From NCBI GenBank assembly GCA_039930045.1, contig JBDSQB010000017.1, positions 62,001 to 126,000 of the forward strand: a stretch of 64,000 nucleotides of DNA. Direction: 5' to 3'. The position numbers were made by a program, and so were the translations under genes. The stretch is from Chthoniobacterales bacterium (GTDB lineage: Bacteria; Verrucomicrobiota; Verrucomicrobiia; Chthoniobacterales; DASVRZ01). Under the pieces are notes generated by a model. It ran no database searches, was not told the DNA's origin, and saw nothing but the letters and a program-made list of their open reading frames with translations. How positions within the stretch are numbered: the stretch's first letter is position 1; each line of letters begins with the position of its first letter. Shown here in pieces: positions 14,840-49,248 of this stretch.

Positions 14840-14855
14840 ATACACAATCCATACA
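14840..14855 (-). promoter_or_regulatory. Putative operator, TGTATG-N2-WTS-TGTAT, for the GH29 operon
   Basis: In the direction of the fucosidase gene the site reads TGTATGGATTGTGTAT, a direct repeat of TGTAT spaced 11 bp apart. It lies 144 bp from the start codon, further than in the other four copies. All fixed positions of the shared motif match. The binding protein is unknown. Confidence 0.55.
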
Positions 14856-15051
14856 GAAATTCGAGCCTTATACGTTATGAGATATTGATTCCGGCCGCGC
14901 AAAGAAAACGCCGTCTAGCGAAAATGTGTGTGACGAAGACGTTTTCTTCTCGTAACGGATAAAAGAGCGCAAGCGGTTTATGAAAAGCGCGGGATTTTCG
15001 GAGCCTGTAATGAGGAAGTCTTCGCCGACATCACTGAATCGGCGAAGTTCG

Positions 15052-15963
15052 TCAATTCGACTCAGGGCGAGTTTGGAATTGCCGAGGAGACTCGTTTTGG
15101 TGGGCGGAAAACCAGTTGGAAAATTGAGAAAGATGGCGAAACCCCAGATCCACAGCAATGCATTTGACAGAAGTTCCCTGCCTGCGGAGTTGCTCGCTAG
15201 CGAATGCTACCCGCCGGCATTCATGATATTGCCGCGGGGTCATTCCGAGTTCGTGGCGCCAGAGCCGATCCAATTGACCAGCCGTAAGGCCGTACTTTGC
15301 GGCGAATGTTTGCCGCAGGTATCGCTCGCGTAAATCAATCGTGGACAAACTTCGATGGCTTTCGCGAACGCGAGGGTCATGAATAAGTGGCGGTTCGAAG
15401 CGAAATTTGTGCAACGCGGCAATTCGCAAGAGATTACGAAGAAACGCAAGAGTCAGTTCCTGAATCTCTAGCATCTCCGGCAATGAAAGAAGCACCCCGT
15501 AGATTTTTAAAGTTTGTTCCCGAGTCAGGCGTCGGATAACTTTTGCCCCACACAACCGCGTCATTGCTCGCGAAGCCACTCGGTCCGGGGCAAAACGGAC
15601 AATGGGAATCCCGCGCCACTCCGCCCCGTTTTCAGGGCTTTTAACGGCGAGATGGATGGAGATGATACGAGCGTTGTCAGAAAAGTGCTGTGTACGTTCG
15701 CCGGGAATGCAGACGATCCATTCTTTTTTCCCGGCGCAAGTGTCAACAGTGACACCGTCTTTGTGCATGGTCACGCTGCCTTCCAGCAGGTGGCAGACGG
15801 TCAAAACCGTGCCTTGAAAAGTGCCGGATTTCCCGGAGGGAGGCCCCTCGTAGCAGCGGTCGAGAACGACATGGAGAGCTTGCCAGTCAAAGAGAAAAGG
15901 TTCGATTTCCTTCACGGTAGGAGGCCCATATTTATTAACTTTATGCCCAAGGCTGTAAAGCAC
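15052..15963 (-). CDS. AraC-family transcriptional regulator
   Basis: A 303-aa regulator with an N-terminal cupin-like sensor (FLFDWQALHVVLDR to about residue 130) and a C-terminal double helix-turn-helix (about 195-290). The latter includes LRERYLRQTFAAKYGLTAGQ and the AraC hallmark VAFASEQLRRQGTSVKCIAV, then DLGFRHLSQFSNWFSAH, close to the usual 'GFxdxSyFsrxFkk'. It faces the dehydratase-SDR-GH39 operon with only about 48 bp between start codons, so it probably controls that operon and itself. The inducer is likely a sugar; which one is not shown. It is also a candidate binder of the TGTATG direct repeats. Confidence 0.85.
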   Translation of the reverse strand: MLYSLGHKVNKYGPPTVKEIEPFLFDWQALHVVLDRCYEGPPSGKSGTFQGTVLTVCHLLEGSVTMHKDGVTVDTCAGKKEWIVCIPGERTQHFSDNARIISIHLAVKSPENGAEWRGIPIVRFAPDRVASRAMTRLCGAKVIRRLTREQTLKIYGVLLSLPEMLEIQELTLAFLRNLLRIAALHKFRFEPPLIHDPRVRESHRSLSTIDLRERYLRQTFAAKYGLTAGQLDRLWRHELGMTPRQYHECRRVAFASEQLRRQGTSVKCIAVDLGFRHLSQFSNWFSAHQNESPRQFQTRPESN

Positions 15964-16011
15964 ATACGCGTGCCTTCGGCGATGATGGCTATTAGGATGC
16001 TTCTGACTTTC

Positions 16012-17966: not shown

Positions 17967-17994
17967 TTTTTTCCTTAAACATAACCCGAGAACA

Positions 17995-19461: not shown

Positions 19462-19564
19462 CCATTTGGCGAAACCTGTTCTCGAACTTTGTCCATTACC
19501 GCTGCGCGCGGCATCAATGATTTTTTGTGGCCAACCGCTCGTGAGCTTGTTGCGGTGAATTCTC

Positions 19565-20701
19565 CTACAATGCTTCAATTGAGGAACGAAGAGAAACCTG
19601 CGGCTTATAGGTGGCTTTGAAAGTCCGTATTACGTGATCTATTATCGGCATTCGGCGAACATCATCCGCGATACAAGCCGCCATCTCTCCTGCGGAAAAC
19701 ATCACAACATCCACTTTGACATCCTTTCTATGAAAATAAGGGATTCGAAGGATTCCACGACAAAAAGCAACCCGATATCGTTGGATTAAGTCCTCCAAAA
19801 CAAGTGGGTCGCCATTGCAGATCGAATCAGATCCTTCCTGGTCAATAAACGCCAAGGCCGGAATTCCACTCCGTTCGAGTCTTTTGAAAAGGTCTGAAAG
19901 CTCTGTGGGCTGTCCTGAAAAAAAGTGTCCGCTGATGCCCGCGGCTGCAAATATCTCAAGAAAAGTTCGCTCTGCCTTCGCTGTTAGTGACCGTTTCGCT
20001 TTCGGAAAAACGACGTGCCGAATTCCGATTTCCTTCCATTTCCGCGCTAGTTCTTCATAACCTGCCTGCCAGTCTTGCAGGTACGTTGGGAGCAAAATGT
20101 CAGACACGCAGTCAGTTGGTTGAATGAGAATTTGTTGCACTCCCAAGTCCCTCAATGAAAGGATGGCACTACGCGCGGCAGGGGGAGGAGTATGCCACAA
20201 GACCGAATCAAGTCGGTGATGAATCAACCGCTCCGTGAATTCCGGTCTTTCCACTTCTTCGCCACGATAAAAAATGAGGTCTGCAACGAATCCGCTTCGA
20301 CGCAAGCCCTCCTCTAATTCGACGTAGAAGCTTCGCGAATATGGGGAGGCCACAAACGTATGCAGACGCACCGGCACTCCGACCACTGCGCGCACTTCTC
20401 TCCGCGAAGGAACCGCCCGGCCTGACAGCAAAGTCTGCGAGCCCCGAATTCGGATTAGAAGCCCTTTTCTTTCAAGGGCCTCGTACGATAAGGCGACAGT
20501 ACGCAACGGAACGTGGAAGAAGTCTGTGATCTCTCGCATCGAGTAGAACGGCTGAGAATGTTCTCTTCGCTGCTGCTTACTCACGAACTCCAACAACCGG
20601 ATCAAGGCGACCTGCTGGCTATCGTTACCCGTGAAGCCGACAAAATCCGAAAAAACTTCCGTAAGAGGAGAAAGGGAGCGTTGAATTTTTTTTCGCGCCA
20701 T
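19565..20701 (-). CDS. GntR-HTH/LacI-type sensor hybrid regulator
   Basis: A 378-aa one-component regulator. Residues about 45-95 form a GntR-like winged helix (FYSMREITDFFHVPLRTVAL, then ALERKGLLIRIRG). Residues 100-378 form a periplasmic-binding-protein-like sugar sensor (FYVELEEGLRRSGF; DWQAGYEELARKWKEIGIRH; VFPKAKRSLTAKAERTFLEI). This is the plan of AraR-like and XylR-like repressors. The ATG at 20701 is chosen because it starts a basic, HTH-linked N-terminus; the frame extends to 20746 through the promoter. It converges on the GH39-like gene and diverges from a Gfo/Idh/MocA gene, with two palindromes between them. Confidence 0.8.
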   Translation of the reverse strand: MARKKIQRSLSPLTEVFSDFVGFTGNDSQQVALIRLLEFVSKQQRREHSQPFYSMREITDFFHVPLRTVALSYEALERKGLLIRIRGSQTLLSGRAVPSRREVRAVVGVPVRLHTFVASPYSRSFYVELEEGLRRSGFVADLIFYRGEEVERPEFTERLIHHRLDSVLWHTPPPAARSAILSLRDLGVQQILIQPTDCVSDILLPTYLQDWQAGYEELARKWKEIGIRHVVFPKAKRSLTAKAERTFLEIFAAAGISGHFFSGQPTELSDLFKRLERSGIPALAFIDQEGSDSICNGDPLVLEDLIQRYRVAFCRGILRIPYFHRKDVKVDVVMFSAGEMAACIADDVRRMPIIDHVIRTFKATYKPQVSLRSSIEAL

Positions 20702-20718
20702 GAAACACGGATAGCCTA

Positions 20719-20732
20719 ACCGTTGAAACGGT
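20719..20732. promoter_or_regulatory. Perfect inverted repeat ACCGTT-GA-AACGGT
   Basis: The palindrome lies 17 bp upstream of the hybrid regulator's start codon and inside the divergent promoter region. Its size and symmetry fit a LacI/GntR-type operator, so it is the best candidate for an autoregulatory site. Confidence 0.5.
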
Positions 20733-20745
20733 AATAGTTTATGCA

Positions 20746-20761
20746 ATGTGTATATTCACAT
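20746..20761. promoter_or_regulatory. Imperfect palindrome ATGTG-N6-CACAT
   Basis: Perfect 5-bp arms around a near-symmetric core, 33 bp upstream of the Gfo/Idh/MocA start. It contains one GTGTAT half but not the second 11 bp away, so it does not belong to the five-copy direct-repeat motif. A second operator for the divergent pair is plausible. Confidence 0.4.
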
Positions 20762-20794
20762 TCTTTTGCAGGCAAGCTGTATCTTCATCGGTCT

Positions 20795-21835
20795 ATGACT
20801 AAAGGTTTTGCGCTGGTTGGACTCGGATTTGGGCAATGGGTCTTAAAAGACTTTCTGACCGGAGCAAAGGCCGATCCATTTTTCAAGCTCCAGGCCGTCT
20901 GCGATCTCGATCTGGATTTGGCAAAAAGAGTCGCCGCCGAATACGGAGTCCGGGCGGAGTCCTCGCTAGACCGGCTTCTCAGAGACAGCACTATCGAGGT
21001 GATCGGCCTTTTCACCGGGCCGACGGGCCGTGCGGCGTTAATTCGGAAAATCGTTGCGGCAGGCCGACACGTCATGACCACAAAGCCTTTCGAGACGGAT
21101 CCGGCAGCTGCGGATGTGTTGGAACTTGCCAAGGAGCGGGGCTGCGTGGTGATGATGAACTCTCCGCAAAGACCGGAGTGCCGAGTTGATCTGACGGCGA
21201 TCAGTGAGTGGCAGGTGGAATTTTCCCTCGGAGAACCCATCGCAGTGCATTCGGAAGTCTGGGCATCCTATTGCGAGAAGGCCGACGGCGGCTGGCAGGA
21301 TGATCCTCGAACCTGTCCCGCTGCCCCCTTATTCCGGCTCTCGATTTATGCCATCAACGATTTGATTTCCCTCTTTGGCAAGGTGGAGTCGGTAGGCGTG
21401 CTGACGGCGCGGCGTTTTACTGACCGCCCGACCCCCGACAACGCTTGCGCGCAGATGAAGTTTCTAAACGGCATGCTGGCCTCGTTTACCTCTTCTTTTT
21501 GCGTGGACGATACCGAGCCTTATCAATCGTCTCTGATTCTTCATTTCCAGAGGGGCACGATTTACCGGAACATGATGCGTGCCGTGCGCGGCACACCTTC
21601 TAAGGGCGTGTCGTTGAATCTCGTCTGTTCGCAAGGAGGGGAACGCCGATTAGCCCAAATGGAAATACCGATTTCCATCGGGGAATATCCGTGGGAGGTC
21701 TTGTATCAAGCGATAGCCCAAAAATCGCAGTCCTTTATGCCCGACACAGAAGTCGTTGCGGAAGGCTTGCGGGTGATTGATGCCATTCGCAGGTCGGAAC
21801 AAAGCGGTCATACGGAGCGCGTGATGAGGGGGTAA
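20795..21835 (+). CDS. Gfo/Idh/MocA-family oxidoreductase
   Basis: A 346-aa NAD(P)-dependent oxidoreductase with an N-terminal Rossmann domain (FALVGLGFGQWVLKDFL; AVCDLDLDLAKRVAAEYG) and a C-terminal alpha/beta domain. GRHVMTTKPFETD occupies the place of the family's (E)KP motif. No signal peptide. The ATG at 20795 starts the Rossmann strand; the frame is open to 20741 without coding appearance. It is divergent from the hybrid regulator and presumably controlled by it. Members oxidise or epimerise sugars and inositols; the substrate is unknown. Confidence 0.8.
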   Translation: MTKGFALVGLGFGQWVLKDFLTGAKADPFFKLQAVCDLDLDLAKRVAAEYGVRAESSLDRLLRDSTIEVIGLFTGPTGRAALIRKIVAAGRHVMTTKPFETDPAAADVLELAKERGCVVMMNSPQRPECRVDLTAISEWQVEFSLGEPIAVHSEVWASYCEKADGGWQDDPRTCPAAPLFRLSIYAINDLISLFGKVESVGVLTARRFTDRPTPDNACAQMKFLNGMLASFTSSFCVDDTEPYQSSLILHFQRGTIYRNMMRAVRGTPSKGVSLNLVCSQGGERRLAQMEIPISIGEYPWEVLYQAIAQKSQSFMPDTEVVAEGLRVIDAIRRSEQSGHTERVMRG

Positions 21836-21978: not shown

Positions 21979-23793
21979 TCAATAAAGGCGGACTTCGAAA
22001 AGGCGCGCCTCGGCCACGCCGTGTGTCTGCTGGACGTCGATGCGGATGCGCCTGGCCACAACCGGGGTCTCCAGTTTGTGCGTCCTCTTTCTTAGAAAAT
22101 TAGCCATTTCCTTCACGATCTCGCACCCGTCCACCGAAATAGTGTAAGAACGAACCAACTCAGGCTGTGCCCCGCGAAGAATAGCCCGATTGGTCGAAAC
22201 GCTGAGCGAGAGTGTGAGTTCGCGCTGAAAGCCGGAATCGAAAGTAAGATGGATTTCCCTGATTTCAGATTCTTTAGGAAGCTCGAGTTCCACCCAAGCC
22301 GGCAGGCTCAGTGAGCGCCAGTGGTGAATCAGCCCGTCGGACCAAGAACCGAACTCTGGTGGCAGATCGCGCGTATGGCCGTCCTGGATCAGTCCGGCCT
22401 CAAACCCCTCAGTTGAATCCGAGGCGCTAACCTTTGCCGCTCGCGCCAAGTCGTTTGGATCATGGTTGTAGAGCGAAGGGATAAAAGCGTCATCTCTTAG
22501 CAACATCTGCTGAACCTTTGTCATCAAGGGGGCTCCAATAAGCTGTCGCATTTCACAGCCCTCGCGAATAGCCAAGGCAGCCGCTGTGCCAATGGCCTGG
22601 CCTACGATGGAGCAAGTTGCCATCACCCGAGTGCTCGCAAACGCCACATGCGTGGCGCTAATATTGCGACCGGCAAAAAGCAAATTTGAAACGTTCCGTG
22701 AGAAAAGTGCGCGGAGCGGTATCGTATACAAATGTGGCAGATGCGTGGGCGTAAAGGGCGGTTCCGTTTTTGCGTCCACACCGAGAGGAGGATGCAGGTC
22801 AATCGCCCAGCCTCCGTAAGCGACCGCATCGGGAAAGATTTGGCCTGACTGGAGGTCCGATTGCGAGAGAACATGGGGTCCGAGCAGCCTGCGCGATTCT
22901 CGCTTTCCCGGCACCATTCCGACCCAGTCGAGTGCCCAGTTTGCAGAGGCGGGGTAGTCGCCTGAGTTCTTGATGTAATCCCAGATTCCAACCGCGATGC
23001 GCAGAAGCTCGTGCCGGATCACTTCATTATCCCGAATCGTGTCGAGCTGTCCGCCCCACTCGAACCACCAGTATCCATACTCAAAGCCCTGAATGGGACG
23101 GCGAAAAAGATCCTCTTTCTGAAAGCGCCGCGCCCAAGAGGGAGTATGAAATTGCTGCGCGGAGGAGTATTCCCTCCCGGTCAGCAGGATTGAACTGCCC
23201 AAAGTCTGTTTATCGGCTGTCGGCTGCGCCAGACTTTCACCATATTGCTCTCGCGCCTCTCGACCGACATGAAAATCGGCCCCGGCTTCGGCACCAAGGG
23301 CGCAGTCTCCCGAGCAATCCGCAAAAATGGTGCCTTTGATTTCGAACAATTCCTCGGTCGAATGCCGCAGGGCTGAAACCGAGCAAATTAGGGTATCCTT
23401 CTTGCGGCAGGCGACAAGGGCGGTGTCCAGAAGAAGCGTAATGCGAGGCTCGGTCTTTAGCTTCTCATAGAGCAGGAGATCCCACTGAGAATAGCTGCGA
23501 TGAGGGTTACGAAAAGAATCCTCCAGCCGCAATTCTTCAATGATTCCTGATTCGCGCGCGCCCGGCCGTCGCCCGTGGCAGTCTGCGCCCACGATGTGCA
23601 TACGAATCTCGCTCGACGCATTGCCTCCGAGAACGGTGCGGTCTTGAATCAGCACGACCGAAGCCCCGTTCCTCGCGGCGGCGAGGGCGGCGCAAACACC
23701 TGCCATTCCTCCACCAACGACAACAAAGTCCGCTTCGAGCGGGACGACACGGATTCGAGGAGAGGAAAAAGCAGGTTTCATAGGATGAACCAT
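21979..23793 (-). CDS. FAD-dependent oxidoreductase with C-terminal beta domain
   Basis: A 604-aa protein. DFVVVGGGMAGVCAALAAAR (about residues 22-41) is the FAD dinucleotide motif and VLIQDRTVLGGNASSEIRM continues the typical 'GGNxSSE' region of the FAD-dependent (xanthan lyase-associated) branch. LLFAGRNISATHVAFASTRV is the second FAD contact. From about residue 460 a galactose-binding-like beta-sandwich follows (LPAWVELELPKESEIREIHL). No clear signal peptide. The operator-like site at 23837-23852 suggests its own promoter. Family members are common in verrucomicrobial and planctomycete glycan loci; the reaction is not established. Confidence 0.8.
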   Translation of the reverse strand: MVHPMKPAFSSPRIRVVPLEADFVVVGGGMAGVCAALAAARNGASVVLIQDRTVLGGNASSEIRMHIVGADCHGRRPGARESGIIEELRLEDSFRNPHRSYSQWDLLLYEKLKTEPRITLLLDTALVACRKKDTLICSVSALRHSTEELFEIKGTIFADCSGDCALGAEAGADFHVGREAREQYGESLAQPTADKQTLGSSILLTGREYSSAQQFHTPSWARRFQKEDLFRRPIQGFEYGYWWFEWGGQLDTIRDNEVIRHELLRIAVGIWDYIKNSGDYPASANWALDWVGMVPGKRESRRLLGPHVLSQSDLQSGQIFPDAVAYGGWAIDLHPPLGVDAKTEPPFTPTHLPHLYTIPLRALFSRNVSNLLFAGRNISATHVAFASTRVMATCSIVGQAIGTAAALAIREGCEMRQLIGAPLMTKVQQMLLRDDAFIPSLYNHDPNDLARAAKVSASDSTEGFEAGLIQDGHTRDLPPEFGSWSDGLIHHWRSLSLPAWVELELPKESEIREIHLTFDSGFQRELTLSLSVSTNRAILRGAQPELVRSYTISVDGCEIVKEMANFLRKRTHKLETPVVARRIRIDVQQTHGVAEARLFEVRLY

Positions 23794-23836: not shown

Positions 23837-23852
23837 ATACAGAACGCATACA
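23837..23852 (-). promoter_or_regulatory. Putative operator, TGTATG-N2-WTS-TGTAT, for the FAD oxidoreductase gene
   Basis: In gene direction it reads TGTATGCGTTCTGTAT, 43 bp from the start codon, inside the 68-bp gap between the FAD gene and the end of the upstream operon. The position matches the copies upstream of both PEP-CTERM genes. Confidence 0.6.
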
Positions 23853-23861
23853 GATTTGCAT

Positions 23862-24614
23862 TCAGTCACCGCGCGTCATTCTCACGTTCTTAATCGCATA
23901 GACGCCGCCGGGCTGGTCAAACCGGCCGGCAATGCAGCCGAATTCCAGACCGATAACTTGAAGATTCCCAAGGCTTTGGAAAGCTTCGGGAAACGGTTGC
24001 CCGTCCACGAGGGCAGCACCGTTGGCGGAGGCGCTCCAAGTCTTGGTGTCGAGGTCGAAACGGATCGTAACTTCGTAGGTTTCGCCGGAGATCACGGGCA
24101 TCGGCGAGGTGTCTTTTCCGGGAACCCACATTTTACCGTTCCGGAAAGAAACGGTCAGCGGGACCTGAGTCCAATGTTGCGGCAATCGTTTGCCTCCGTC
24201 TCCGAGCACCACGATGAACGTCCCCCCTTGAGCAGCCTCTGTTAAAAGCACTGTTTTGTAAGTAACAATGTATTTTCCAGAAGTCAGGTTAGCCGACCGG
24301 AGATCCCAAAGGACGCTGGCATTCGCCACCACCTCGGGATTCTTCTCGCTAGCGGCGACAGTCACAAGCGCATAAGGAGGCGCTAGTTGTCCAAGCTTTT
24401 CCGTGCCCAAAGCGATTGTGGAGGGCGGCACGATGAGGAGCGCGGTCGGACGTTCTAGCGGAGGCTCCGATTTTTTTTCGACGGAGATCTTCTTGCCGTC
24501 CGCTTCACGAAATGTGGTATCGACGAGAAGTTCGTTGGCGGTAGCTGACGCGGGGACTGCCAGCAGTCTAGCCACCATCAACGCGAGAAGGAGGTTTTGT
24601 TTTATATTTTTCAT
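23862..24614 (-). CDS. Secreted beta-sandwich protein, last gene of the pseudopilin operon
   Basis: A 250-aa protein with a signal peptide (MKNIKQNLLLALMVARLLAV, cleavage near ASATA) and a beta-rich body with patterns such as FDLDTKTWSASANGAALVDG and an ending AIKNVRMTRGD, reminiscent of concanavalin-like or lectin-like sandwiches. No catalytic residue pair is recognisable. Its ATG overlaps the stop of the 1324-aa gene by 4 bp, so the two are coupled and probably work together outside the inner membrane. The exported location is inferred from the signal sequence; function is unknown. Confidence 0.68.
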   Translation of the reverse strand: MKNIKQNLLLALMVARLLAVPASATANELLVDTTFREADGKKISVEKKSEPPLERPTALLIVPPSTIALGTEKLGQLAPPYALVTVAASEKNPEVVANASVLWDLRSANLTSGKYIVTYKTVLLTEAAQGGTFIVVLGDGGKRLPQHWTQVPLTVSFRNGKMWVPGKDTSPMPVISGETYEVTIRFDLDTKTWSASANGAALVDGQPFPEAFQSLGNLQVIGLEFGCIAGRFDQPGGVYAIKNVRMTRGD

Positions 24615-28585: not shown

Positions 28586-28598
28586 AAAGATCGTTTTA

Positions 28599-33718: not shown

Positions 33719-33736
33719 GCCACTCGGACGCGGCGG

Positions 33737-35351: not shown

Positions 35352-35364
35352 GGGAGACGCCTTT

Positions 35365-36604: not shown

Positions 36605-36620
36605 ATACAGATCTCATACA
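36605..36620 (-). promoter_or_regulatory. Putative operator, TGTATG-N2-WTS-TGTAT, for PEP-CTERM copy 1 and the pseudopilin run
   Basis: In gene direction it reads TGTATGAGATCTGTAT, 49 bp from the ATG at 36555. It is flanked to give an overall GTGTAT...ATACAC symmetry (36601-36621). It overlaps the last codons of the upstream PEP-CTERM copy 2. Confidence 0.65.
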
Positions 36621-38545: not shown

Positions 38546-38561
38546 ATACAGAACTCATACA
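38546..38561 (-). promoter_or_regulatory. Putative operator, TGTATG-N2-WTS-TGTAT, for PEP-CTERM copy 2
   Basis: In gene direction it reads TGTATGAGTTCTGTAT, 48 bp from the GTG at 38497. Its surroundings resemble those of the 36605 site for about 35 bp, as expected for duplicated promoters, so these two copies are not independent evidence for the motif. Confidence 0.62.
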
Positions 38562-38621
38562 CTTCTGTGGAAACAGGCACGGCTTCGAGGCGGCGACGCT
38601 TGGTGACAAGCGCCGGCTTCG

Positions 38622-40214
38622 CTATTCGGGAGGGTGGATGCGAATGCGCAAATCCTCGAGAACGTCGCCTTGTTGAGGGACGATATCCAAGGCGAATTGC
38701 CAGCGCCATTGCCTGTGATTGCTTTTGAAAACAAGGCGGTTCCATCCTTTCTCAAGCTCTGTTTTCACCATGACAGGCGCTACTGCGATCATGCCGGAGC
38801 TAATTTCGTGTCCGTTCATCCAGGCGGTGAGATGATTTTTTCCGGAAATCCCCAGCGATACCACGCGCAACGAGACCGAACGTTGACGGTCGCTGTAAAT
38901 CCAGCGCGCGCCGTAACAAACATCGTTCGTCTGGAAGAATGAGACCGCCGAGATATCCAACGCCCCCTCGGCAGGGCCGCCAGCGTAACCCGTGGCGGCA
39001 AAATACCGCTTCCAGAGAATCGGATGGCCAGGGATAACCTCTTGGAGGGCGCCGAATCCTTCGCCGCGCGAGAAGGCGTCATCCACCGGCAGAGCTCCCC
39101 CCTTGGGATTGAATTCGATTCCCTTCCAGCCGTTTCCTCCCGCATTGCCGACGCCCACGATCCAGGGTGCCGGGATGCTCACCGTGCGCGAGAGGGACCC
39201 CGCCTTAAGTGCAAACCGGTTCGTCAGGCGGTCGGGAGTTCCTTCCACAACGAAAAAGCCAGTGGCCGCGGATTTCTCTGCGGTGACGATCTTCCAGCCG
39301 TCGGGCGGCTCCAAGGAGGCCCCGGCACTGCTGCCGCCGGGAATTTGATGTTCATAGGAGATTCGGAAAGTCGCGGTCTCACCCGAGCCAGAGGCGGCCT
39401 GCTCTTCGACCCACCAAGAGAGCGTTTCCTGCTTGTCGTTCCAGAATTTCGGAATCCACTCGGCCAGCAGCAGTTGCGCCGCCTTGCTTTCCCCGAGTCC
39501 TTCCAGCATTCCAGCGGCGATGGAAACATGTCCAGCCTGATTGGGATGGACGAGGTCGACCGTCACGGAAAATTCCGGGTCGCGCCGCCGGCCTTCGTTC
39601 AGCATTCGGTTCATGGCTTCGTGTGTTGGCAGAACCAAACAATTCTCCGACTTCGCGATGGCCTGAATTCGTTCGATCAACAACCGCATTACCCGGTTCT
39701 TGGTCGAATTTTCGTTTTCGGTGCAAAGGGTCGGCGTGGCAATGGCGAAAACTCTCGGATGCGCCCGCGCCCGCAAGTCGCGGATGAAATTTCGGTAATT
39801 CTCGGCCCATTTATCGAGTGCTTCCGGTTTTTCGGTGAGGCGCGGTGACAGCACGTTATTCATGCCCAGCATGACGACGATCACTTCCGCCCCCCGGTCC
39901 AGAGTCTCTTTCACATCTACATTCGGAACATCCAGAATTAACGGCTCCGTGCGACTCTTGAGTTCTACGTTTTGCCAGGATTCCAGCGTCTGCCCGCCAC
40001 CGCCGAGTGAGATAAAATCACACTTCTTTCCTGTCTTCCCGAGCGTTTCCCGGATTAAGGGCGCCCAGCCTTTTGCCGCCTTCGCACCCTGAGCGGTGAT
40101 GCTGTCTCCGATAAAAACGACGCGGTCATTGGCCTTCAGCGCGGATTCCGCAAAAAGACGTGGAGCCAGAACAACTAGCAAAAAGGCGACGGCACGGAAG
40201 GGGGTTGTTTTCAT
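38622..40214 (-). CDS. Secreted SGNH esterase with C-terminal beta domain
   Basis: A 530-aa exported protein. A signal peptide (MKTTPFRAVAFLLVVLAPRL, cleavage near LFAES) precedes an SGNH domain with S38 in RVVFIGDSITAQG, VVMLGMNNVLSP (N119) and the D220/H223 pair in DLVHPNQAGH. Residues about 250-530 are beta-rich (FRISYEHQIPGGSSAG; GNHLTAWMNGHEI-like turns), probably a carbohydrate-binding sandwich. Rhamnogalacturonan acetylesterase-type or carbohydrate esterase activity is likely. Last gene of the operon starting at 48915, 13 bp after the CE7-like gene. Confidence 0.8.
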   Translation of the reverse strand: MKTTPFRAVAFLLVVLAPRLFAESALKANDRVVFIGDSITAQGAKAAKGWAPLIRETLGKTGKKCDFISLGGGGQTLESWQNVELKSRTEPLILDVPNVDVKETLDRGAEVIVVMLGMNNVLSPRLTEKPEALDKWAENYRNFIRDLRARAHPRVFAIATPTLCTENENSTKNRVMRLLIERIQAIAKSENCLVLPTHEAMNRMLNEGRRRDPEFSVTVDLVHPNQAGHVSIAAGMLEGLGESKAAQLLLAEWIPKFWNDKQETLSWWVEEQAASGSGETATFRISYEHQIPGGSSAGASLEPPDGWKIVTAEKSAATGFFVVEGTPDRLTNRFALKAGSLSRTVSIPAPWIVGVGNAGGNGWKGIEFNPKGGALPVDDAFSRGEGFGALQEVIPGHPILWKRYFAATGYAGGPAEGALDISAVSFFQTNDVCYGARWIYSDRQRSVSLRVVSLGISGKNHLTAWMNGHEISSGMIAVAPVMVKTELEKGWNRLVFKSNHRQWRWQFALDIVPQQGDVLEDLRIRIHPPE

Positions 40215-40227
40215 ATTCTATAAGAGT

Positions 40228-41571
40228 TTATTTGCGGGGATTTAGTGTTGCCTCGAGCCATCGCCATGCGTAACGGTCGAAAGCCGGGGACCAGTCGTGA
40301 GCGGTGTTCGGCAGCGGGATAATCTGCTTCTCCCCACCAAGCGCCCGGTAAACGGCGTAGATGCCGGTCGGCGGGGAAACACGGTCGATCAAGCCTGCGT
40401 TCATCAGAACCGGGCAACGAACAAGCGGAGCGAAGTTGAGCACATCGAAATAGCCTTCAATGCGCAAGCTCGGCGATGGATCGGCGTTGCCGACAAAAGG
40501 ACCGTCACCCGGCAATTTCGCCGCGTTGAGTCGATCCGTGTCCCGCAACCAAGGGAGATAGGCAAAATGGGTGATGGCGGGAATGGCAGCTCGAAAATCC
40601 GAATCAAAGGCTGCCACAATCAGAGTCAAACGCCCTCCCTGACTTCCTCCAAGGACCGCAAGCCTGCTTCGATCCACTGCTGGCAATAGCTTCAGGGCTC
40701 TCGCCGCCTGGAGAGCGTGCAAATAAAGGCCAAAGTGAGCTTTTTCCTCTGGATGTTTCGCCCCCATGTCGTCGGGAACAGGAGGGTATTCGGTCGCATC
40801 GACCGGAAAACCATGAATCTGGACGTCCAAGGCCGCGAATCCGTGTCTCGCGTGTTCGATTGGTATTGCACGTGCGACGTTGCCCGCGCCGGGCAACACG
40901 AGCAAAGTCGGGAACGGTCCGGGCCCGGGAGGTTTTGCGAACCAGCCTTCGATTGTTTTGCCGCCGTATGATGCAAAGCGGACTTTGTAAACCTCCACCT
41001 CGCTCACTCGCTCGCCTTCCGGATCGTAGTTCTCCGGCATGCGGGCCGACGTGACGTTATACCTGCCAAGTTCATCGCCTCGTAACACGCGCTCGAACGT
41101 TACTTGCGGGTCGGGCGGGATCGCTTCGAGATGCTTGCGAGCGGCGCTCCAGAATGCCAGAAAATCTGCGGGCAGAAGCGGATGGACTTTGGTCTCCGTC
41201 TCACGCCACCCAAATGTGGTCGCCGCCGGCAGCGTCTCATGCTCGTTAAGTTTGACCGCAACCCGCAAATCGAAGAAACCAGGTTCGAGTTTATCCCCGG
41301 GAATCGTGATCTCGAAGCTGTTGTCGAAACGAATCTTCGCCGAGCCGGAAAGAAAAGGTATGTCCACACGGTTCCGCGACACGCTCCATTCCAGGCTGAG
41401 CGCGCGTTGAAACGTGCGGCAGATGATGCGAGGGGAAGGCGGCCCGGGAAAGAGGAAGGTGTCGCTCTCTGGAGCGAAAAAAACCACGTCCCGCGAGCGC
41501 GGTGGAGAGGGCGCCGCCTGATAAGGGCCGAAGAGATTGACGGTCATCGCGATCAACCAAAGACTATTCAT
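40228..41571 (-). CDS. CE7-like acetylxylan esterase
   Basis: A 447-aa alpha/beta hydrolase. An N-terminal beta domain (residues 25-125) precedes HPLLPADFLAFWSAARKHLE, the typical CE7/AXE1 entry helix. The nucleophile S310 lies in RLAVLGGSQGGRLTLI, the acid in MNAGLIDRVSPPTGIYAVY, and the histidine in PNTAHDWSP. The QIHGFPVD region matches the 'GQG' oxyanion loop place. A short hydrophobic N-terminus may be a signal peptide. The ATG at 41571 overlaps the upstream gene by 8 bp. It would deacetylate xylan or oligosaccharides. Confidence 0.8.
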   Translation of the reverse strand: MNSLWLIAMTVNLFGPYQAAPSPPRSRDVVFFAPESDTFLFPGPPSPRIICRTFQRALSLEWSVSRNRVDIPFLSGSAKIRFDNSFEITIPGDKLEPGFFDLRVAVKLNEHETLPAATTFGWRETETKVHPLLPADFLAFWSAARKHLEAIPPDPQVTFERVLRGDELGRYNVTSARMPENYDPEGERVSEVEVYKVRFASYGGKTIEGWFAKPPGPGPFPTLLVLPGAGNVARAIPIEHARHGFAALDVQIHGFPVDATEYPPVPDDMGAKHPEEKAHFGLYLHALQAARALKLLPAVDRSRLAVLGGSQGGRLTLIVAAFDSDFRAAIPAITHFAYLPWLRDTDRLNAAKLPGDGPFVGNADPSPSLRIEGYFDVLNFAPLVRCPVLMNAGLIDRVSPPTGIYAVYRALGGEKQIIPLPNTAHDWSPAFDRYAWRWLEATLNPRK

Positions 41572-43531
41572 CTTTCCTCCAGCCAGGACCACTCGAAGCT
41601 GATTCACCCCGCCCGTCCGATGCAATCATCCAAGGCGCATCCGGACGCCAGATCACTCTTAAATGCCGATAGGGAATCGTTAGTTCGTTTGGCGTCCAGG
41701 ATCCATCGAGAAAAGGAAGCTGTTCGGCTGGCAAACCATCGGCCTCCCAAATGGGACGCGGGTAGGAACGGCCGTTGACCGTTGCGTAGCGGAGCGAATC
41801 GTCCTCTGGCGAATAGCTAATCTCCAAGCGCGTGTCGCCGACAGCGTAACGAGTGTTCCGGACGCCGAAATGCCAGTAATCGACATATTTCGCAGCCAAA
41901 ATCCGTTCCTGAAAAGCGGCAAAGCTTTCCTCGGCGGGCAAGCCGATCGTCAGTGCAAAGCCGTTGAGGGTGCGTGCCAGTTCGTCTTTCGTGAAACGGC
42001 GCGGTGCTCCCTCGTAGTTGAACAGCGAGACCTGCGTGTAACCAGGAACCTCCTCGATTCGGAGGGAGTCCGGCCCCCCCCAGTTCGAAATATTCAGAGC
42101 CCGTAACCCCAAGTAAACCCGGCCGTCGCGTACAAAGACGTGTCCGTCCCGTATCTCGACCTGCTCGGGGCGCCCGAAATGGCTCGGCAGCACCAACGCC
42201 AGCCGGAGCCGGGTCACTTCGCGCTCCGCGAGCTGGGGCTTGGGCCGGGCGAGCAACAGCGCGGTGCGTCCATCCTGCGCGACAGTCATTCTCAGGTGGT
42301 TGGGCTGGGCATGCTCGTCGGTGGGCACATCGTCATCGGTGAAGTAGCTCACGTAGGCGGTGCGCACATCCTCTGGGCCGCGCGCCGGAGCAGTCCGCCG
42401 GTATTGAAGGAAAAAACCGTCCGTCCAGCTTTCGCCCAGAGCGGAACCCAGCGCGAAATCTTCTTCCTGATAGTGCGTCAGTACTGGCTCACACGAGCGG
42501 TAATTTGGCAAACCGCAACCACGCTCGGCCGTGGCTTGCAGATGGAACGGATATTTCCGGTTTCGGCTCCACTCAACGAGATGGGCGGGAGCCTCCGCCT
42601 GGGCAGAAGCGGACCAGCAGAGCGAGCCGAGCGCGACCGGCCGCTCGTTGTGCTGATGGAGCAATCGGATAGGATCGCGGCCCAATTCCTCCAAGGGATT
42701 CGGAATGACGGCGTCGCCCAGCGCCAACCAGAGAAAAAAATTCATTCCGCTGAGGTGGGCTGTCCGATCCTGCTGATACGTCCGCGAATAAGGGCCGCCC
42801 ATCAGTCCCGTCGGCCAATGAAAATGGCCGAGAACGTCCGCCCAGATTCGTTCCACGCAGCGGGCGGCGAGGTCGCGTGCCTCAGGATGGCGGGCATGCT
42901 GGACGATCTCCGTGAGATTCACCAGAGTTAAGGGCGTGTAAACCGGACTGGTATATTCGCTCATCAGGCCTCGGCGGCTTAGGAGGTCGCCGAGTTGATG
43001 AAGATTCCAGAGACCGTGTTCTACCGCCCCCGCGTCACCAAAATACTCGCCGCCGAGGATCATGCCGAGCGAGGCCTTGGCCGGCATGTTGTCGTTGAAA
43101 CCGTGAAATTGATAATCCGCCTGCCGGTTGCCAGGAAAATCCTCCAGGCCCGCCCGTGCCCAGCCTTCCAGCTTCCCGCGCACGGCTTCCGTCAGCTTCG
43201 CGCCGTGCAAGACGAGCATCTGGGTAGTGTGATTCGTGACAAAAATATCGAAGGGGGACGTGATTTCCATCTCGCTGCGCGGCCGGACATGCAGGCGGAA
43301 CTCCAGCTTTTCCAGAATGCGGTTTGCAAGTTCGACGCTCGGCGGCTCTCCCGCCAGGAGTCCGAAGCAAAGCTGTAAGATCGTGCGCGTGAGGGTGGCG
43401 GGCCTTTCTTCCGTGAGCGTCCATTCGCCGTCCGCATCGAACCAGCGCGGGATCCATATCGCTGCCAGTTCCTGGGTCTGCTTGCAGCGGTGGATAAGGA
43501 AAGGATCGGAGGATTTCGTGGGTGTGTTCAT
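41564..43531 (-). CDS. Large predicted alpha/alpha-toroid protein, unassigned glycan enzyme
   Basis: A 655-aa soluble protein without signal peptide. Residues 30-330 are helical with aromatic-rich turns (DYQFHGFNDNMPAKASLGMI; LMSEYTSPVYTPLTLVNLTE; PTGLMGGPYSRTYQQD), typical of (alpha/alpha) toroid glycosidases and lyases. Residues 350-640 are beta-rich (VYLGLRALNISNWGGPDSLR; LEISYSPEDDSLRYATVN). That domain order is known from heparinase-like and related proteins. I cannot name a family or catalytic residues. It lies between a propeller protein and a CE7 esterase, so a role in glycan degradation is probable. Confidence 0.65.
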   Translation of the reverse strand: MNTPTKSSDPFLIHRCKQTQELAAIWIPRWFDADGEWTLTEERPATLTRTILQLCFGLLAGEPPSVELANRILEKLEFRLHVRPRSEMEITSPFDIFVTNHTTQMLVLHGAKLTEAVRGKLEGWARAGLEDFPGNRQADYQFHGFNDNMPAKASLGMILGGEYFGDAGAVEHGLWNLHQLGDLLSRRGLMSEYTSPVYTPLTLVNLTEIVQHARHPEARDLAARCVERIWADVLGHFHWPTGLMGGPYSRTYQQDRTAHLSGMNFFLWLALGDAVIPNPLEELGRDPIRLLHQHNERPVALGSLCWSASAQAEAPAHLVEWSRNRKYPFHLQATAERGCGLPNYRSCEPVLTHYQEEDFALGSALGESWTDGFFLQYRRTAPARGPEDVRTAYVSYFTDDDVPTDEHAQPNHLRMTVAQDGRTALLLARPKPQLAEREVTRLRLALVLPSHFGRPEQVEIRDGHVFVRDGRVYLGLRALNISNWGGPDSLRIEEVPGYTQVSLFNYEGAPRRFTKDELARTLNGFALTIGLPAEESFAAFQERILAAKYVDYWHFGVRNTRYAVGDTRLEISYSPEDDSLRYATVNGRSYPRPIWEADGLPAEQLPFLDGSWTPNELTIPYRHLRVIWRPDAPWMIASDGRGESASSGPGWRKDE

Positions 43532-43534
43532 GGT

Positions 43535-45223
43535 TTATTTTTGGAGTTGAAGGCGAAGAATTCGCTGATGGCCGTGGTCGTAAACGACGGCACTGCCGTT
43601 GCGGGCCGCGATTATGGTTGGCCCGTCGAGATCGAATTCGTAAACGGCGAGCGGGCGGCGGGTTTCGATGTCGTAGCAAAGTACGCGATTCCCCGATGGG
43701 TCACACACCCAGAGCGCGGAGCCATCGGCGCTCAAGTAGATTGGCTCGGAGGAAGCCAATGCATCCCATCGGGCGGTTTCCACGAATTCTCGCCCCTGTA
43801 ATTCGAGTTCAACCACGCGACCGTCGCAAGAGGCAAAGAATTTTCCGTTTCCGGCTTTTGAAATGGCCGTCAGCCGCCGGATTGGAATGGAAGTTCGGAA
43901 GGAAAGTTCCCCGAGATTTTTGAGCAACTTTCCGTCGGCGCGCAGTTGATAAGCACGTCCGGTTCCGTCTGGCTCGATCACGACTATTGCCTTCGTGCGC
44001 TCGACCAAAACTTCGACGGCTCCGACCGCGTCGCGGGAAAAGGGATCCGTGGCGACATCCCAGAATCTCGGTTCGGTTTTGAAATCATAAACCGCGAAGC
44101 CTGCCCTCCCTCCGCCCAAGACAGGAACGACGAAATTGCCATCGGCGCGTTCGCAAGGCTGCTTGAAGCCGGTGGCGTCCAACGTAAGCCCGAATTGCAA
44201 GGGTGCATCGGGTGGCGCATCCGGTTTCCAGACGCCCCCGGCCGCGAGCACAGTGCCATTCGCGCTAATGTTCAGACCTGCGCAGGTCGGCAGCGCGCCC
44301 AAGCGGCGGCCGATGGTCAGGTCGCCCCGGCTTTCGTCCCAAGAGGCTAGTAGGATTGCCCCCTTTTCTCCGCTGATAGCATAAGTCTCGTTGTGAAGCC
44401 GAGCCAGCCCAATACCCAATCCGAGGTCTGGATCCACTTTGAGCCGTCCAAAAAAGGTTCCTGTCATTCCGCCCATAACCGGTCCGGGATCGGCCTCCAA
44501 CAAGGCATTTAGCCGGTTGATGGTGCCGTTGGGGTCAAAACTAAAAAAGAAATCCCCTATCCGGACTGGATTTCTGCCCTTGATGTCCCTGGGCCAGTTG
44601 GGATCGGGTTTGCCGTCCGGCAAAAACTTCGTAACACGTCCCCGCGGTTGCATGGCTCGAGCAGAAATCCGCATAGGACTTTCGACATAAACCGAACCGT
44701 CGGGCCCGAGATCAATGGAGGCTGCAGGTGCATCAGGCAGAGGGACCTCGGTTTTATCCGTGAGATTCACCAGAAATAATTTGCCGTTTCTTCCCAATGC
44801 AACGCGGCCATTTGTCGAATTCTTGCTTAGGATGTCCGCAGCCACACCGAGGCCTTTAAACCTCGCGCCCGGCGCAGCATCTGCAGACAGCATCGAGAGC
44901 GAGCCATCGGCGAGAAGCACAATCTGGTTCCCGGCAGCAATGATCGCCTTCGGCAAATTCTCCGGCTCCGGTGTCTGGTAGGTACCGACTAGGCGACCAT
45001 CGGCGGCATATTTGTTGATTTGGCCGCGTCCTCCGGTTCCCCAGATGAAACCGGCCGCGTCCACCCCAACCCCGGCTCCCACCGGGGCCACCTCTGAAAA
45101 TTTCACGAGCGTTCCGCCTGCCTCGCCAGAGTTTCCCAGAACTCCCGAAAATATAATGCGTTCTGCGTGGAGGTTTGCAGCGAGGAGCGTCGCCGAAATT
45201 GTTAGAAAGTGTAGTGCGTTCAT
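43535..45223 (-). CDS. Secreted beta-propeller protein
   Basis: A 562-aa exported protein: signal peptide MNALHFLTISATLLAANLHA followed by ERIIFSGV. The body consists of repeated short beta units (GVDAAGFIWGTGGRGQINKY; SIDLGPDGSVYVESPMR; YLSADGSALWVCDPSGNRVL), an NHL/SMP-30-like propeller. No catalytic set is visible. The ATG overlaps the stop of the 1231-aa gene by 4 bp, so the pair is coupled in the same way as the 1324-aa/250-aa pair. Likely a binding or scaffold protein. Confidence 0.72.
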   Translation of the reverse strand: MNALHFLTISATLLAANLHAERIIFSGVLGNSGEAGGTLVKFSEVAPVGAGVGVDAAGFIWGTGGRGQINKYAADGRLVGTYQTPEPENLPKAIIAAGNQIVLLADGSLSMLSADAAPGARFKGLGVAADILSKNSTNGRVALGRNGKLFLVNLTDKTEVPLPDAPAASIDLGPDGSVYVESPMRISARAMQPRGRVTKFLPDGKPDPNWPRDIKGRNPVRIGDFFFSFDPNGTINRLNALLEADPGPVMGGMTGTFFGRLKVDPDLGLGIGLARLHNETYAISGEKGAILLASWDESRGDLTIGRRLGALPTCAGLNISANGTVLAAGGVWKPDAPPDAPLQFGLTLDATGFKQPCERADGNFVVPVLGGGRAGFAVYDFKTEPRFWDVATDPFSRDAVGAVEVLVERTKAIVVIEPDGTGRAYQLRADGKLLKNLGELSFRTSIPIRRLTAISKAGNGKFFASCDGRVVELELQGREFVETARWDALASSEPIYLSADGSALWVCDPSGNRVLCYDIETRRPLAVYEFDLDGPTIIAARNGSAVVYDHGHQRILRLQLQK

Positions 45224-48200
45224 GGAAAAATGAGGGTTCCCCAATTCGCTGGCTGAATGGTCGCCTCGCCAGGAACGTCGTTCACCAGACCCGTCTCATG
45301 GTTTGACCAATAGGAGCGCAGCAAATCCACACTTCCTGCTGCGTCGCCGTAGATCACACCGAAATCACCCGCCAGCGTTTCGCTCTGCCCAGTGCCAGGC
45401 AGACCAAGGGCGTTCGCGGGAATGTCAGCGACGACGGTGTATTCGCCCTTTCCTTGAGTAACGGTGACGCTTGCCTCCGTCACCTGCCGAACCGCGTCGA
45501 TCTTTTCCGTCCGCCAGGGACTGCTGAACAGCACGGGGTCTTTTCCGTCGGGATTTTGATAGTCGTAAAGCACCGCGATGGTTTTCTTTCCGAAGGGAGC
45601 GATCAGCAACCGCCGATCGCCACGCGTCGGGCGTTTGCGACCGACCGGGGCCGATGCGTCGGTGGAAAATTCAAAAGCGACGGCGTCGCCGGTTTTGAAA
45701 AGCTGTTTGTCATCCGCACCGCGATTAATCCACGGCGAAGGATCCTTAACTTTCCATGCGATCAACAACCGTTTCCCCTGACGTGCCAGCTTGACCCGCG
45801 CGTAAGGATATTCTGCGCCGCGTTCTCCCCATTCCGCTTGCCATTCCCCTCCCCATGAGTCGGGATCCTGCGTTAGCCCAGCAGGAATATCCGTCACCGT
45901 TAGCGTCTTCGGTGACGGTGCGATCTCCGCCTCTTTGCGAGCGTGGGATCGGGCTGCCGTCGCTTGCGCGTCCGAGACGGTGATCTCCCCACGGCTGCGC
46001 CGGAGTGTGTCGAGTCCTTCCATCTCAAAAAGCCGGTAATCTGGCTTGCCGGACTGCAGGTAATATTTTCCGTCCTTCCGAGATCGCCCAAAGTAACCTC
46101 CGAAAGGTTCGCCCTCCGTCCGGTAAGGACCCGTTTCCACGGACATGCGAATGTCGGAAAAAAATTCGTCGAGATAGATCCCGTCCGTAGTCAGGATCAT
46201 GTCCCGTCCGTAGTTGCCGTTCAGCACGGTGACGTCTCCCTCCTTGTCAAGAGGCGCCACACCAAGAAAAAACAGCGCCGCTTGTAAATCTCCAGATTTC
46301 GGCAGGGGGGCTTTGTGCGATCCTTGCACGCCCGCCCATTTGCCCGGGAGCGTCCAATCCAGATTACCTTGGGCGTTTAGGGCCGTTATCGGCTCGGCGT
46401 TTATCAGAAGCCGTCCCTGCGAATCCGTGGCCGTAGCTTGAAGGTTGGCGAAGCTTGGTGCCTCCACGGATTCCTTCAGTGCTTCAGCAAGCCGATAGTC
46501 CGGCGTCCCAGAGGGAAAGAATCCATGCGGCTTAAGCCGAAGCAGCCGCGTTCCCGACGGCGACTCCACTAGCACTTTCATCGAGAGGCCGGACTGCCCG
46601 CTTCCCCAGGAGCCGAACGCCCACCGCGTCTCTTTTGGCAAAAACTCAAATTCCTCGTTTTCCGGCAGGCCGTCACCATTGATGTCTTTCCAAAGAAAAT
46701 GGATGTCGGCTTTTTGTAAGACCTTTTGAGGAACCTCAATCCAATCGGGATTGCGGGGAGACGGTTGAAAAATCTCCTCAGGCTTTTCCCGCAATTCACG
46801 GGCCGCATCGACGAGAGCTGCCTTAACCTCGGTCACCTCCGCAATCGAGCGAGGCAAAGTCCAGCGAAAAAAGTTCGCCATGCCGGTTAGCTGTCCAAGT
46901 AGCGCGAGCGGTTTGAGCGTCTGATCGTCCATCAGTTCGAAGAGCGAAATTTGTTTCGATTGACCAAAAACGAAGGTTCTTCCTCCCTCCCGGACGAATT
47001 CGAGCCTGTAGTCGTCGGACCTGCGAATCAGTGCCGCCCCGGATTTCGGACGATAGAGAGTAGAGAGCGGGCGGGCCGTCTTCGCCGCAAAATCCAAGCT
47101 CCACAGAACTCCTGCTCCGATCCAGTGCGTCGCATCATCGGGATCAAAGCTGCCGCCCGGCGCGCCATAATCCGTCGGGCCGAACAATTCTTTAACGAGC
47201 TGACCCGAGGCAACGTCCCAGACACTGATCCGGCGCGGCGTACGATCATCTTCTGTTACCCAAAGCTTTCCCTCCTTGTCCGTTGCGATCCCAAAGGGCT
47301 GATAGACACCATTTGATTGCCACTTTCCGAGAGATGGCCGCCCGCCCTTGCGACCCAGTGTGCGAAGCAACTCCCCACGAGCAGACATAACCTTGATATC
47401 CTGGTCAGGGCCATTATCGCTGATCAAAATCTCCCCTCGCGGAGAAACGGTCATCCCGCGTGGTGCGGCCACCGCAGGGGTGCTCAACGGATGGAATATT
47501 CCGCCCTTCACTTCCAGCATGCCCAAACGGTCTCCGGAAAACGCCATTAAATTCCCGTCCGGCCCGGCTGCCAGCAAACCGGGATTCGGCAGTTGGATTT
47601 CCCGGGTCTGTTTTGCTGTGCGGGCGTCCAAGATAACGATGCGATTTTCCTTTTTTAGCGAAACAAACAACGATTCTCCGATTGCTGCGAATCCGGCCAG
47701 GTTGTCTGCGGGAGGCACCCAGAAAGGGACAGTGCCGCTACCCTCGAAAGGGTTCACGGCCACTTCTCGCTCGCCTTTCGGACCTCCGTAAGAAAGCGAC
47801 TTCCCTTCCTTGGTCCAGGCGAGAATGTTCAATGGACGCGGGCAACTCCACGTCCCATCAGGCCGCAGGACGAAGGGCGTGTAACCGGGACGCCCTTCCA
47901 CTGCCGCAAACACGCGATCGGCGGCTGCGGCGAGCATCAGCTTCCCGCTCGAAACGTGGGGAGGGATACGAATATGGCTCTGTTTCGCACCTTGCAGGTC
48001 CGTCCGGACGATATTGAATCCCGCCTCCGCAAGTGGCCATCCTAAATAGACATCCTCGCCGAAGGCGGCTGCAGCGGTGGGGTTCGAGTGATCGCCGCCC
48101 CAGCTGCCTTTCGGATCATCCAAGCCAAAAGGCGGCTTGCCTTCGTTGTAATATGAAAAGAGATACTTTGGATGAATGCCTGCGTGGCTGATAGCCTTCC

Positions 48201-48915
48201 AGCGGTAGATCCCTGATAGGACAGGCGTGCCGGAATCGTCCAGCCCGTCCCAGACCAGGCGACGCATGCCCACCGGCAATTTTAGGGCACTCACGAGACT
48301 TCGAACTCTTTTTCCCTCCGGAGTTTCGATCACCAGCGACATTAGCCCTGCAGCTGGTTGCTCAAATTCGATGGCGATTTCATTTTGTGTCGCCGCCACT
48401 GCTTCCTGATGCCCGGCTAGATCGAAGAATTCCCAATGGGATGCGTCCGTGGAGAGCGGGTCGAACCCAGCACCCGGTCCGCCGTCCCGATAACGTTGGA
48501 TGAGCCTCGGCGTCGAAGGATTTTTCCCAGGCCAGATCACCCGCAGAGCCATGCGAAATCCAGCGGCGTCTGGAGGAAGATGCAAAGCTTCTCGTGGAAA
48601 ACGAAACACCATGCGCAGGACATTGCCGAGGGAAACTATGTTCGCCTGTGAGTTGTCCTGGCGCAGATTCTTCCCGGCCCCGACAACAACTTCGGCCATG
48701 GGCTGCTTGCCGTCTGTTCCGAACCGTTCGACATCGACTGCAACTTCAAGGTCTTCCTCGGAGATATGCGCCGCAAACGCGAGCTTCGGGTCCACCGCTG
48801 TAGAAAGACGGATAAACTCTTCCTCTGTGAAAACCGATGCGGTTTTTCCTTCGGCAAAAGAGCAGGCGATCCCAAACAGTAGGGAAGCGCCCAAAAGAAA
48901 GGGGAAGCGCAGCAT
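45220..48915 (-). CDS. Giant secreted beta-propeller / CBM9-like protein (paralogue of the 1324-aa protein)
   Basis: A 1231-aa exported protein with signal peptide MLRFPFLLGASLLFGIACSF. A FlgD-like strand (RRLVWDGLDDSGTPVLSGIY) leads to SYYNEGKPPFGLDDPKGSWG, matching YYNPGTPPWETYDGSGSWG of the paralogue. Propeller repeats follow (GIATDKEGKLWVTEDDRTPR), then WAGVQGSHKAPLP and a CBM9-like C-terminus ending DLLRSYWSNHETGLVND. It differs from the paralogue mainly in the N-terminal 150 residues. First gene of a minus-strand operon of six. The divergent gap upstream holds a putative operator at 48965-48980, 49 bp from its ATG. Confidence 0.77.
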   Translation of the reverse strand: MLRFPFLLGASLLFGIACSFAEGKTASVFTEEEFIRLSTAVDPKLAFAAHISEEDLEVAVDVERFGTDGKQPMAEVVVGAGKNLRQDNSQANIVSLGNVLRMVFRFPREALHLPPDAAGFRMALRVIWPGKNPSTPRLIQRYRDGGPGAGFDPLSTDASHWEFFDLAGHQEAVAATQNEIAIEFEQPAAGLMSLVIETPEGKRVRSLVSALKLPVGMRRLVWDGLDDSGTPVLSGIYRWKAISHAGIHPKYLFSYYNEGKPPFGLDDPKGSWGGDHSNPTAAAAFGEDVYLGWPLAEAGFNIVRTDLQGAKQSHIRIPPHVSSGKLMLAAAADRVFAAVEGRPGYTPFVLRPDGTWSCPRPLNILAWTKEGKSLSYGGPKGEREVAVNPFEGSGTVPFWVPPADNLAGFAAIGESLFVSLKKENRIVILDARTAKQTREIQLPNPGLLAAGPDGNLMAFSGDRLGMLEVKGGIFHPLSTPAVAAPRGMTVSPRGEILISDNGPDQDIKVMSARGELLRTLGRKGGRPSLGKWQSNGVYQPFGIATDKEGKLWVTEDDRTPRRISVWDVASGQLVKELFGPTDYGAPGGSFDPDDATHWIGAGVLWSLDFAAKTARPLSTLYRPKSGAALIRRSDDYRLEFVREGGRTFVFGQSKQISLFELMDDQTLKPLALLGQLTGMANFFRWTLPRSIAEVTEVKAALVDAARELREKPEEIFQPSPRNPDWIEVPQKVLQKADIHFLWKDINGDGLPENEEFEFLPKETRWAFGSWGSGQSGLSMKVLVESPSGTRLLRLKPHGFFPSGTPDYRLAEALKESVEAPSFANLQATATDSQGRLLINAEPITALNAQGNLDWTLPGKWAGVQGSHKAPLPKSGDLQAALFFLGVAPLDKEGDVTVLNGNYGRDMILTTDGIYLDEFFSDIRMSVETGPYRTEGEPFGGYFGRSRKDGKYYLQSGKPDYRLFEMEGLDTLRRSRGEITVSDAQATAARSHARKEAEIAPSPKTLTVTDIPAGLTQDPDSWGGEWQAEWGERGAEYPYARVKLARQGKRLLIAWKVKDPSPWINRGADDKQLFKTGDAVAFEFSTDASAPVGRKRPTRGDRRLLIAPFGKKTIAVLYDYQNPDGKDPVLFSSPWRTEKIDAVRQVTEASVTVTQGKGEYTVVADIPANALGLPGTGQSETLAGDFGVIYGDAAGSVDLLRSYWSNHETGLVNDVPGEATIQPANWGTLIFP

Positions 48916-48964
48916 TGTTTATCACGGATACGATGAACGTCTCTGAAGGAAAGGTCCTAATTAG

Positions 48965-48980
48965 TGTATGAATTGTGTAT
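48965..48980 (+). promoter_or_regulatory. Putative operator, TGTATG-N2-WTS-TGTAT, in a divergent promoter
   Basis: On the plus strand it reads TGTATGAATTGTGTAT. It lies 51 bp from the ATG of the SIS remnant (49032) and 49 bp from the start of the 1231-aa gene on the other strand. Orientation relative to the plus-strand operon matches the other four copies; it could serve both directions. Confidence 0.6.
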
Positions 48981-49246: not shown

Positions 49247-49248
49247 TT

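Follow-up and report, generated by a model that had tools for sequence, protein, structure and literature searches.

LacI proteins usually bind palindromes, and AraR of Bacillus subtilis uses palindromic operators and represses. AraR controls sugar and polysaccharide genes (PMC4494728), as are also found in the locus described here. GntR proteins mostly bind palindromes, with direct-repeat exceptions that include FarR, NanR, NagQ and the MocR regulators (PMC4494728, PMC5320631), and the FarR repeat, TGTATTAWTT, starts with TGTAT (PMC4494728), as does the motif of the present locus. Verrucomicrobiota are important glycan degraders, and no sugar-locus operator was found described for them in the open-access papers searched. 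The window analyzed here is a stretch of 64,000 nucleotides from a Chthoniobacterales bacterium (GenBank assembly GCA_039930045.1, contig JBDSQB010000017.1, positions 62,001 to 126,000), to which coordinates refer unless a contig or locus is named. A preliminary description had proposed that five copies of a direct repeat of TGTAT form the operator of an undescribed glycan regulon, read by either an AraC-family protein or a GntR/LacI hybrid. The open-access literature searched, a weak test of novelty, yielded no earlier account of this operator or of a Verrucomicrobiota regulon of this kind. A shared operator defining a regulon of the glycan locus is well supported, and of the two outcomes named beforehand as refuting it, random copies in unrelated coding regions and a lack of conservation upstream of orthologues, neither was seen. 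It is probable that six sites serve as operators of one local regulon run by the chimeric regulator encoded at 19565-20701.

Putative Operators and Their Gene Units

All five proposed sites lie where they had been placed and match one 16-bp pattern with 0 mismatches (5/5 in a scan of the window). Their alignment places C or G before each TGTAT, extending the proposed direct repeat to a unit of STGTAT-N5-STGTAT in the same 11-bp register. TGT is present in both repeat halves and thus matches the GntR half-site type yGT (consensus NyGTM, PMC4494728). A hidden palindrome common to the operator sites was sought and none was found; the sites are direct repeats.

The gene units behind the sites were assigned by Pfam. 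The putative operator CTGTATGGATTGTGTAT (14840..14856, minus strand; exact match) stands before the GH29, GDSL esterase and GH52 operon (10691..14695, minus strand), 144 bp from the GH29 ATG. A sixth, one-mismatch copy, GTTTATGCAATGTGTAT (20737..20753, plus strand), had been missed; it lies where the hybrid regulator gene and a Gfo/Idh/MocA oxidoreductase gene (20796..21835, plus strand) diverge, 43 bp before the ATG of the latter at 20796. The exact match CTGTATGCGTTCTGTAT (23837..23853, minus strand) precedes a FAD-dependent oxidoreductase gene (21979..23793, minus strand) by 43 bp. Another exact match, GTGTATGAGATCTGTAT (36605..36621, minus strand), stands before a long unit (23862..36555, minus strand) of presumably co-transcribed genes for PEP-CTERM/PATR, Gfo/Idh, three pilin-like, 1092-aa, CBM9 and 263-aa proteins, which have homologues in hybrid loci of other genomes. 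The exact match GTGTATGAGTTCTGTAT (38546..38562, minus strand) precedes a PATR autotransporter-like gene (36614..38497, minus strand). Finally, the exact match GTGTATGAATTGTGTAT (48964..48980, plus strand) lies between two divergent units, namely an MFS sugar transporter and GH31 unit with a SIS remnant at its head (49102..52507 for the two genes, plus strand), and an operon for a 1231-aa FlgD_ig-type protein, 569-aa and 655-aa proteins, an AXE1 esterase and a GDSL esterase (38622..48915, minus strand), which may also be under its control; in one other genome, G015, homologues of the 1231-aa and GDSL genes carry operator-like sites of their own. The enzyme set suggests that the target glycan is acetylated and contains fucose and xylose.

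One of the proposed start-codon distances refers to a gene remnant: the ATG 51 bp past the 48965 site opens a frame of only 56 codons, which is not the transporter gene and is followed by what remains of a frame-shifted SIS-type sugar isomerase gene. This phosphosugar isomerase remnant, between the operator and the MFS gene, covers 49032-49260 and gives a weak SIS_2 match.

The 36605 and 38546 sites are duplicates of one promoter, as had been recognized, but a second duplicated promoter pair had been overlooked: the 14840 and 48965 sites have a 66-bp ungapped stretch in common. The number of independent sites was therefore slightly overstated; because two pairs are duplicates, there are about four in the window, the sixth copy counted. 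The 36605-36621 operator shares bases with the end of the PATR frame upstream, a mark left when the PATR gene and its promoter were duplicated in tandem. Downstream of both the 14840 and the 48964 operators, at 14825-14834 and 48986-48995, a box GGAAATGCTG was observed, which recurs past operators of genome G329 as GAAATGCTG and GAAAAGCTG (L133, L111).

Occurrence of the Pattern across Genomes

At up to two mismatches, 6 matches are found in the window against 0.27 expected from shuffles, an estimate that, unlike the uniqueness across the genome and the footprints seen in other species, is not independent of the five sites from which the pattern was derived. The exact 16-bp pattern occurs five times in the whole genome of 3,523,763 bases, each time within the sugar locus and pointing toward a gene, and the reversed pattern, used as a control, gives 0 matches genome-wide. 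At the one-mismatch level, two additional copies appear, at 20738-20753 (the sixth site) and C14:161528. The latter, on another contig (L008:8528-8544, plus strand), belongs to a surface-polysaccharide cluster, where a gene of the membrane glycosyltransferase type begins 67 bp downstream of it, and may be a chance occurrence.

Among 97 genomes, comprising this one and others of the order Chthoniobacterales, only two exact matches were found besides those in the locus (G059 and G089); they stand in unrelated contexts and look like chance. An exact match in G242 faces an apparent tRNA gene and likewise looks like chance.

The Hybrid Regulator and Recurrence beside Its Homologues

The hybrid (378 aa; 19565..20701, minus strand) combines a GntR-type winged helix with a predicted LacI/AraR-like sensor. 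Its N-terminal part gives profile matches, over residues 31-94, to Lmo2241 (4ham, E=5.7e-5) and YvoA (4u0y, E=0.0043). Pfam GntR is found in 6 of 10 hybrid homologues, under the gathering cut-off, and several MocR NCBIfam models are weak matches to the hybrids. The C-terminal part has LacI-type domains as its best Foldseek matches (E 1e-6 to 1e-4), among them the AraR sensor domain 3tb6, from a model with a pLDDT of 53 and TM-scores near 0.25; in the PDB profile search, this domain gave no significant sequence match and AraR was not detected.

Conservation upstream of homologous genes was examined in loci picked by regulator homology, not by the motif. Around the closer hybrids (36-46% identity), STGTAT-N5-STGTAT recurs in degenerate or exact form 44-59 bp ahead of an ATG, and the genes so preceded are mostly homologues of window genes. 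Counting sites with up to two mismatches at 35-60 bp before ATG, 7 were found in 171 kb of close-hybrid loci, 2 in 253 kb of distant-hybrid loci, which thus show no excess, and 1 in 223 kb of AraC and other control loci; the rate by close hybrids is 6.5 times that of the distant-hybrid and control loci (P=0.005), with the mismatch threshold and distance window set after the window sites were known. A positional peak at 20-60 bp before ATG is seen in the gene direction only.

The hybrid homologues of G015 and G082 (37-38% identity to the window hybrid) lie among homologues of window genes, between the two covering GH52, CBM9, 1092-aa, 263-aa, GDSL, 569-aa, 1231-aa, pilin and PATR. Sites in G015 stand before the 263-aa, GDSL and 1231-aa homologues and are weak (two mismatches), and in G082, CBM9-like sequence follows the gene that the site precedes. 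Beside the hybrid gene itself, neither genome showed a clear site. In both, the gene divergent from the hybrid homologue (L013:539-1384, minus strand; L014:2742-3641, plus strand) encodes a protein that, by eye, looks like a LacI-type sensor domain without the DNA-binding part. Furthermore, regulator-fetched loci of G329 carry sites before a pilin gene and before the hybrid gene itself, and the site in G519 precedes a further gene adjoining a hybrid.

An exact-pattern search of 384 genomes of the class led to G252 and G329, so that the G252 sites and some of the G329 sites were found through the motif. In G252, which is outside the order, the contig encoding its best hybrid homologue has two exact copies and one near copy, 38-40 bp ahead of pilin-like genes; off that contig, no copies at up to one mismatch were found. 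G329 has four hybrid matches, two of them from contigs that look like duplicates, and 11 sites within one mismatch, compared with 0-3 in other hybrid genomes; several of the G329 sites precede CBM9 or pilin homologues. Further hybrid genomes were sought in the family of G329 and none was found. In this genome, an exact operator (L113:9930-9946, minus strand) immediately precedes what is left of a truncated CBM9/1231-aa family gene, its C-terminal part, and a triple 11-bp repeat CCGTATGGTAAGTGTATGGCTTGTGTAT (L114:9955-9982, minus strand) stands ahead of a unit that encodes a 1482-aa secreted-type protein. When other hybrid loci were searched de novo for direct repeats of 11 bp, most of the yield was composition noise.

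These data bear on two rival explanations. That the copies are promoter-duplication remnants or chance occurrences devoid of regulatory meaning is very improbable: two site pairs are indeed duplicates, but the copies occupy four unrelated contexts in their own genome and have footprints in five others, and the downstream homologues, the gene-direction peak and the density contrast all disfavor this reading. PhoB/OmpR-type activators classically use 11-bp direct repeats that abut or overlap the -35 box, as might be expected if an unlinked regulator, for example an OmpR/PhoB-type response regulator, read the repeat; this is unlikely in view of the motif density, which tracks the closeness of the hybrid homologue, and of the exact sites, which are all confined to the hybrid-encoding locus. 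The hybrid is favored as the binder because the loci of its closer homologues carry the motif before genes.

Just upstream of the hybrid gene and before the sixth operator lies a perfect palindrome, ACCGTTGAAACGGT (20719..20732), which is unique in the genome and may be a second, autoregulatory site of the hybrid. This unique palindrome could instead be its real operator; that, and the palindrome habit of GntR and LacI proteins, count against the favored assignment. Since it is a single copy and the operator sites themselves are direct repeats, the palindromic operators of the AraR subfamily were not recovered in this locus.

The AraC Protein and a Separate Conserved Element

Both candidate binders of the preliminary description were compared, and the hybrid rather than the AraC-family regulator (15052..15963, minus strand) is the favored reader, with reasonable confidence in the explanation as a whole. 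AraC-family activators typically use direct repeats in fixed orientation near the -35 box, and the gene lies approximately 200 bp from the 14840 site, so that direct binding and activation of the units by this protein has some appeal. It is nevertheless quite improbable. Near the five closest AraC orthologues (48-54% identity), no gene is preceded by a motif copy, indicating that the operator is not conserved there; four of the five adjoin MR_MLE and SDR genes, and at two of these GH39 is present as well. The AraC gene thus co-travels with an enolase-type (MR_MLE) gene, whose counterpart in the window is the unit 15514-19461, where no operator was found. A class-level search for AraC orthologues returned none from G252, G015 or G329.

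Moreover, the AraC/MR_MLE divergent region has a separate conserved 35-bp element, CATATTTATTAACTTTATGCCCAAGGCTGTAAAGC (15927..15961, plus strand), of the form CATAWTTRTTAASTYTAWGC-N7-YGTAAAGC. It is exact in the window, G258, G242 and G318 and conserved across orders (L069, L070, L071), and no second copy was found elsewhere in the window. This element is likely the AraC site, and the AraC protein was set aside as reader of the motif on account of it and the orthologue contexts. The element overlaps the GTG that is listed as start codon for AraC, and the true start is therefore probably downstream of it.

Promoter Geometry and Proposed Mechanism

The sequences downstream of the sites were pooled from several species (26 sequences, or 21 groups once duplicates were merged, from a site set partly chosen by the motif). 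TAnnnT exactly 26 bp past the operator occurs in 4 of 21 groups (rotation test 0.0096) and TTG exactly 3 bp past it also in 4 of 21 (rotation test 0.12); the joint probability of the pair at a 17-bp spacer is 0.0002 (rotation test). This suggests that the operator abuts a sigma-70 -35 box in an activator-like position. Among the window promoters, a -10 match is present at 20737 only, and five of the six sites lack an evident -35/-10 pattern; the 14840 and 48965 promoters have TA-rich hexamers 8 bp further downstream. An alternative sigma-factor promoter, with the repeats as two boxes 11 bp apart, was ruled out, as sigma-70 and sigma-54 box spacings do not match 11 bp.

We infer the following scheme for how the hybrid binds, in which sense it regulates, what induces it and where the promoter boxes lie. 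Two winged-helix domains of the hybrid would read the two STGTAT copies, which, 11 bp or one helical turn apart, would present the same face of the DNA, with the operator always facing its gene. A sugar or sugar derivative in the LacI-like domain would switch binding. Downstream of the operator, the sigma-70 -35 box would come 3 bp on and the -10 box at +26, and most start codons would fall between about +38 and +59, leaving very short leaders. This position and the fixed orientation would be those of an activator, although a repressor that obstructs the -35 region is almost as likely. Classical repression released by sugar, as in AraR, differs from the favored explanation in the sign of regulation only and is a serious, if lesser, possibility: AraR is a repressor and the site lies no farther from the start codons than a core promoter would, but repression requires neither a strict orientation nor a fixed spacing to the putative -35 box.

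More tentatively, and with the balance somewhat against it, AraR-like GntR/LacI chimeras across the class of Verrucomicrobiota might act as activators on an 11-bp direct repeat 3 bp upstream of -35, at short-leader or leaderless promoters, coupling glycan degradation to secreted CBM9/FlgD-type and pilin-like proteins.

Comparison with Known Systems

The motif and its favored regulator make a directly testable regulon and permit the genome-scale assignment of glycan loci to regulators. The regulon would connect glycan use with proteins of unknown function, both pilin-like ones and very large secreted ones, and the hybrid is a possible case of a GntR/LacI chimera as a direct-repeat activator. 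AraR has a GntR winged helix with a LacI sensor, the architecture predicted for the hybrid (whose sensor part is taken from a low-confidence model), whereas its operators are palindromic and those of the window are direct repeats in one orientation. FarR, NanR and NagQ share the GntR winged helix and the use of direct repeats, but differ in their HutC- or FadR-type sensors, repeat sequences and metabolites. Likewise, the MocR regulators GabR, TauR and PdxR have a GntR winged helix and often bind direct repeats (PMC5320631), yet possess an aminotransferase-like sensor, none of which was detected in the window hybrid. AraC/XylS-type activators of sugar loci resemble the window sites in their direct repeats near -35 and fixed orientation, whereas the AraC gene of the window has a different conserved element and different partner genes. 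A local sugar regulon under a linked chimeric regulator is known; what would be new is the orientation-locked direct-repeat operator of an AraR-like chimera.
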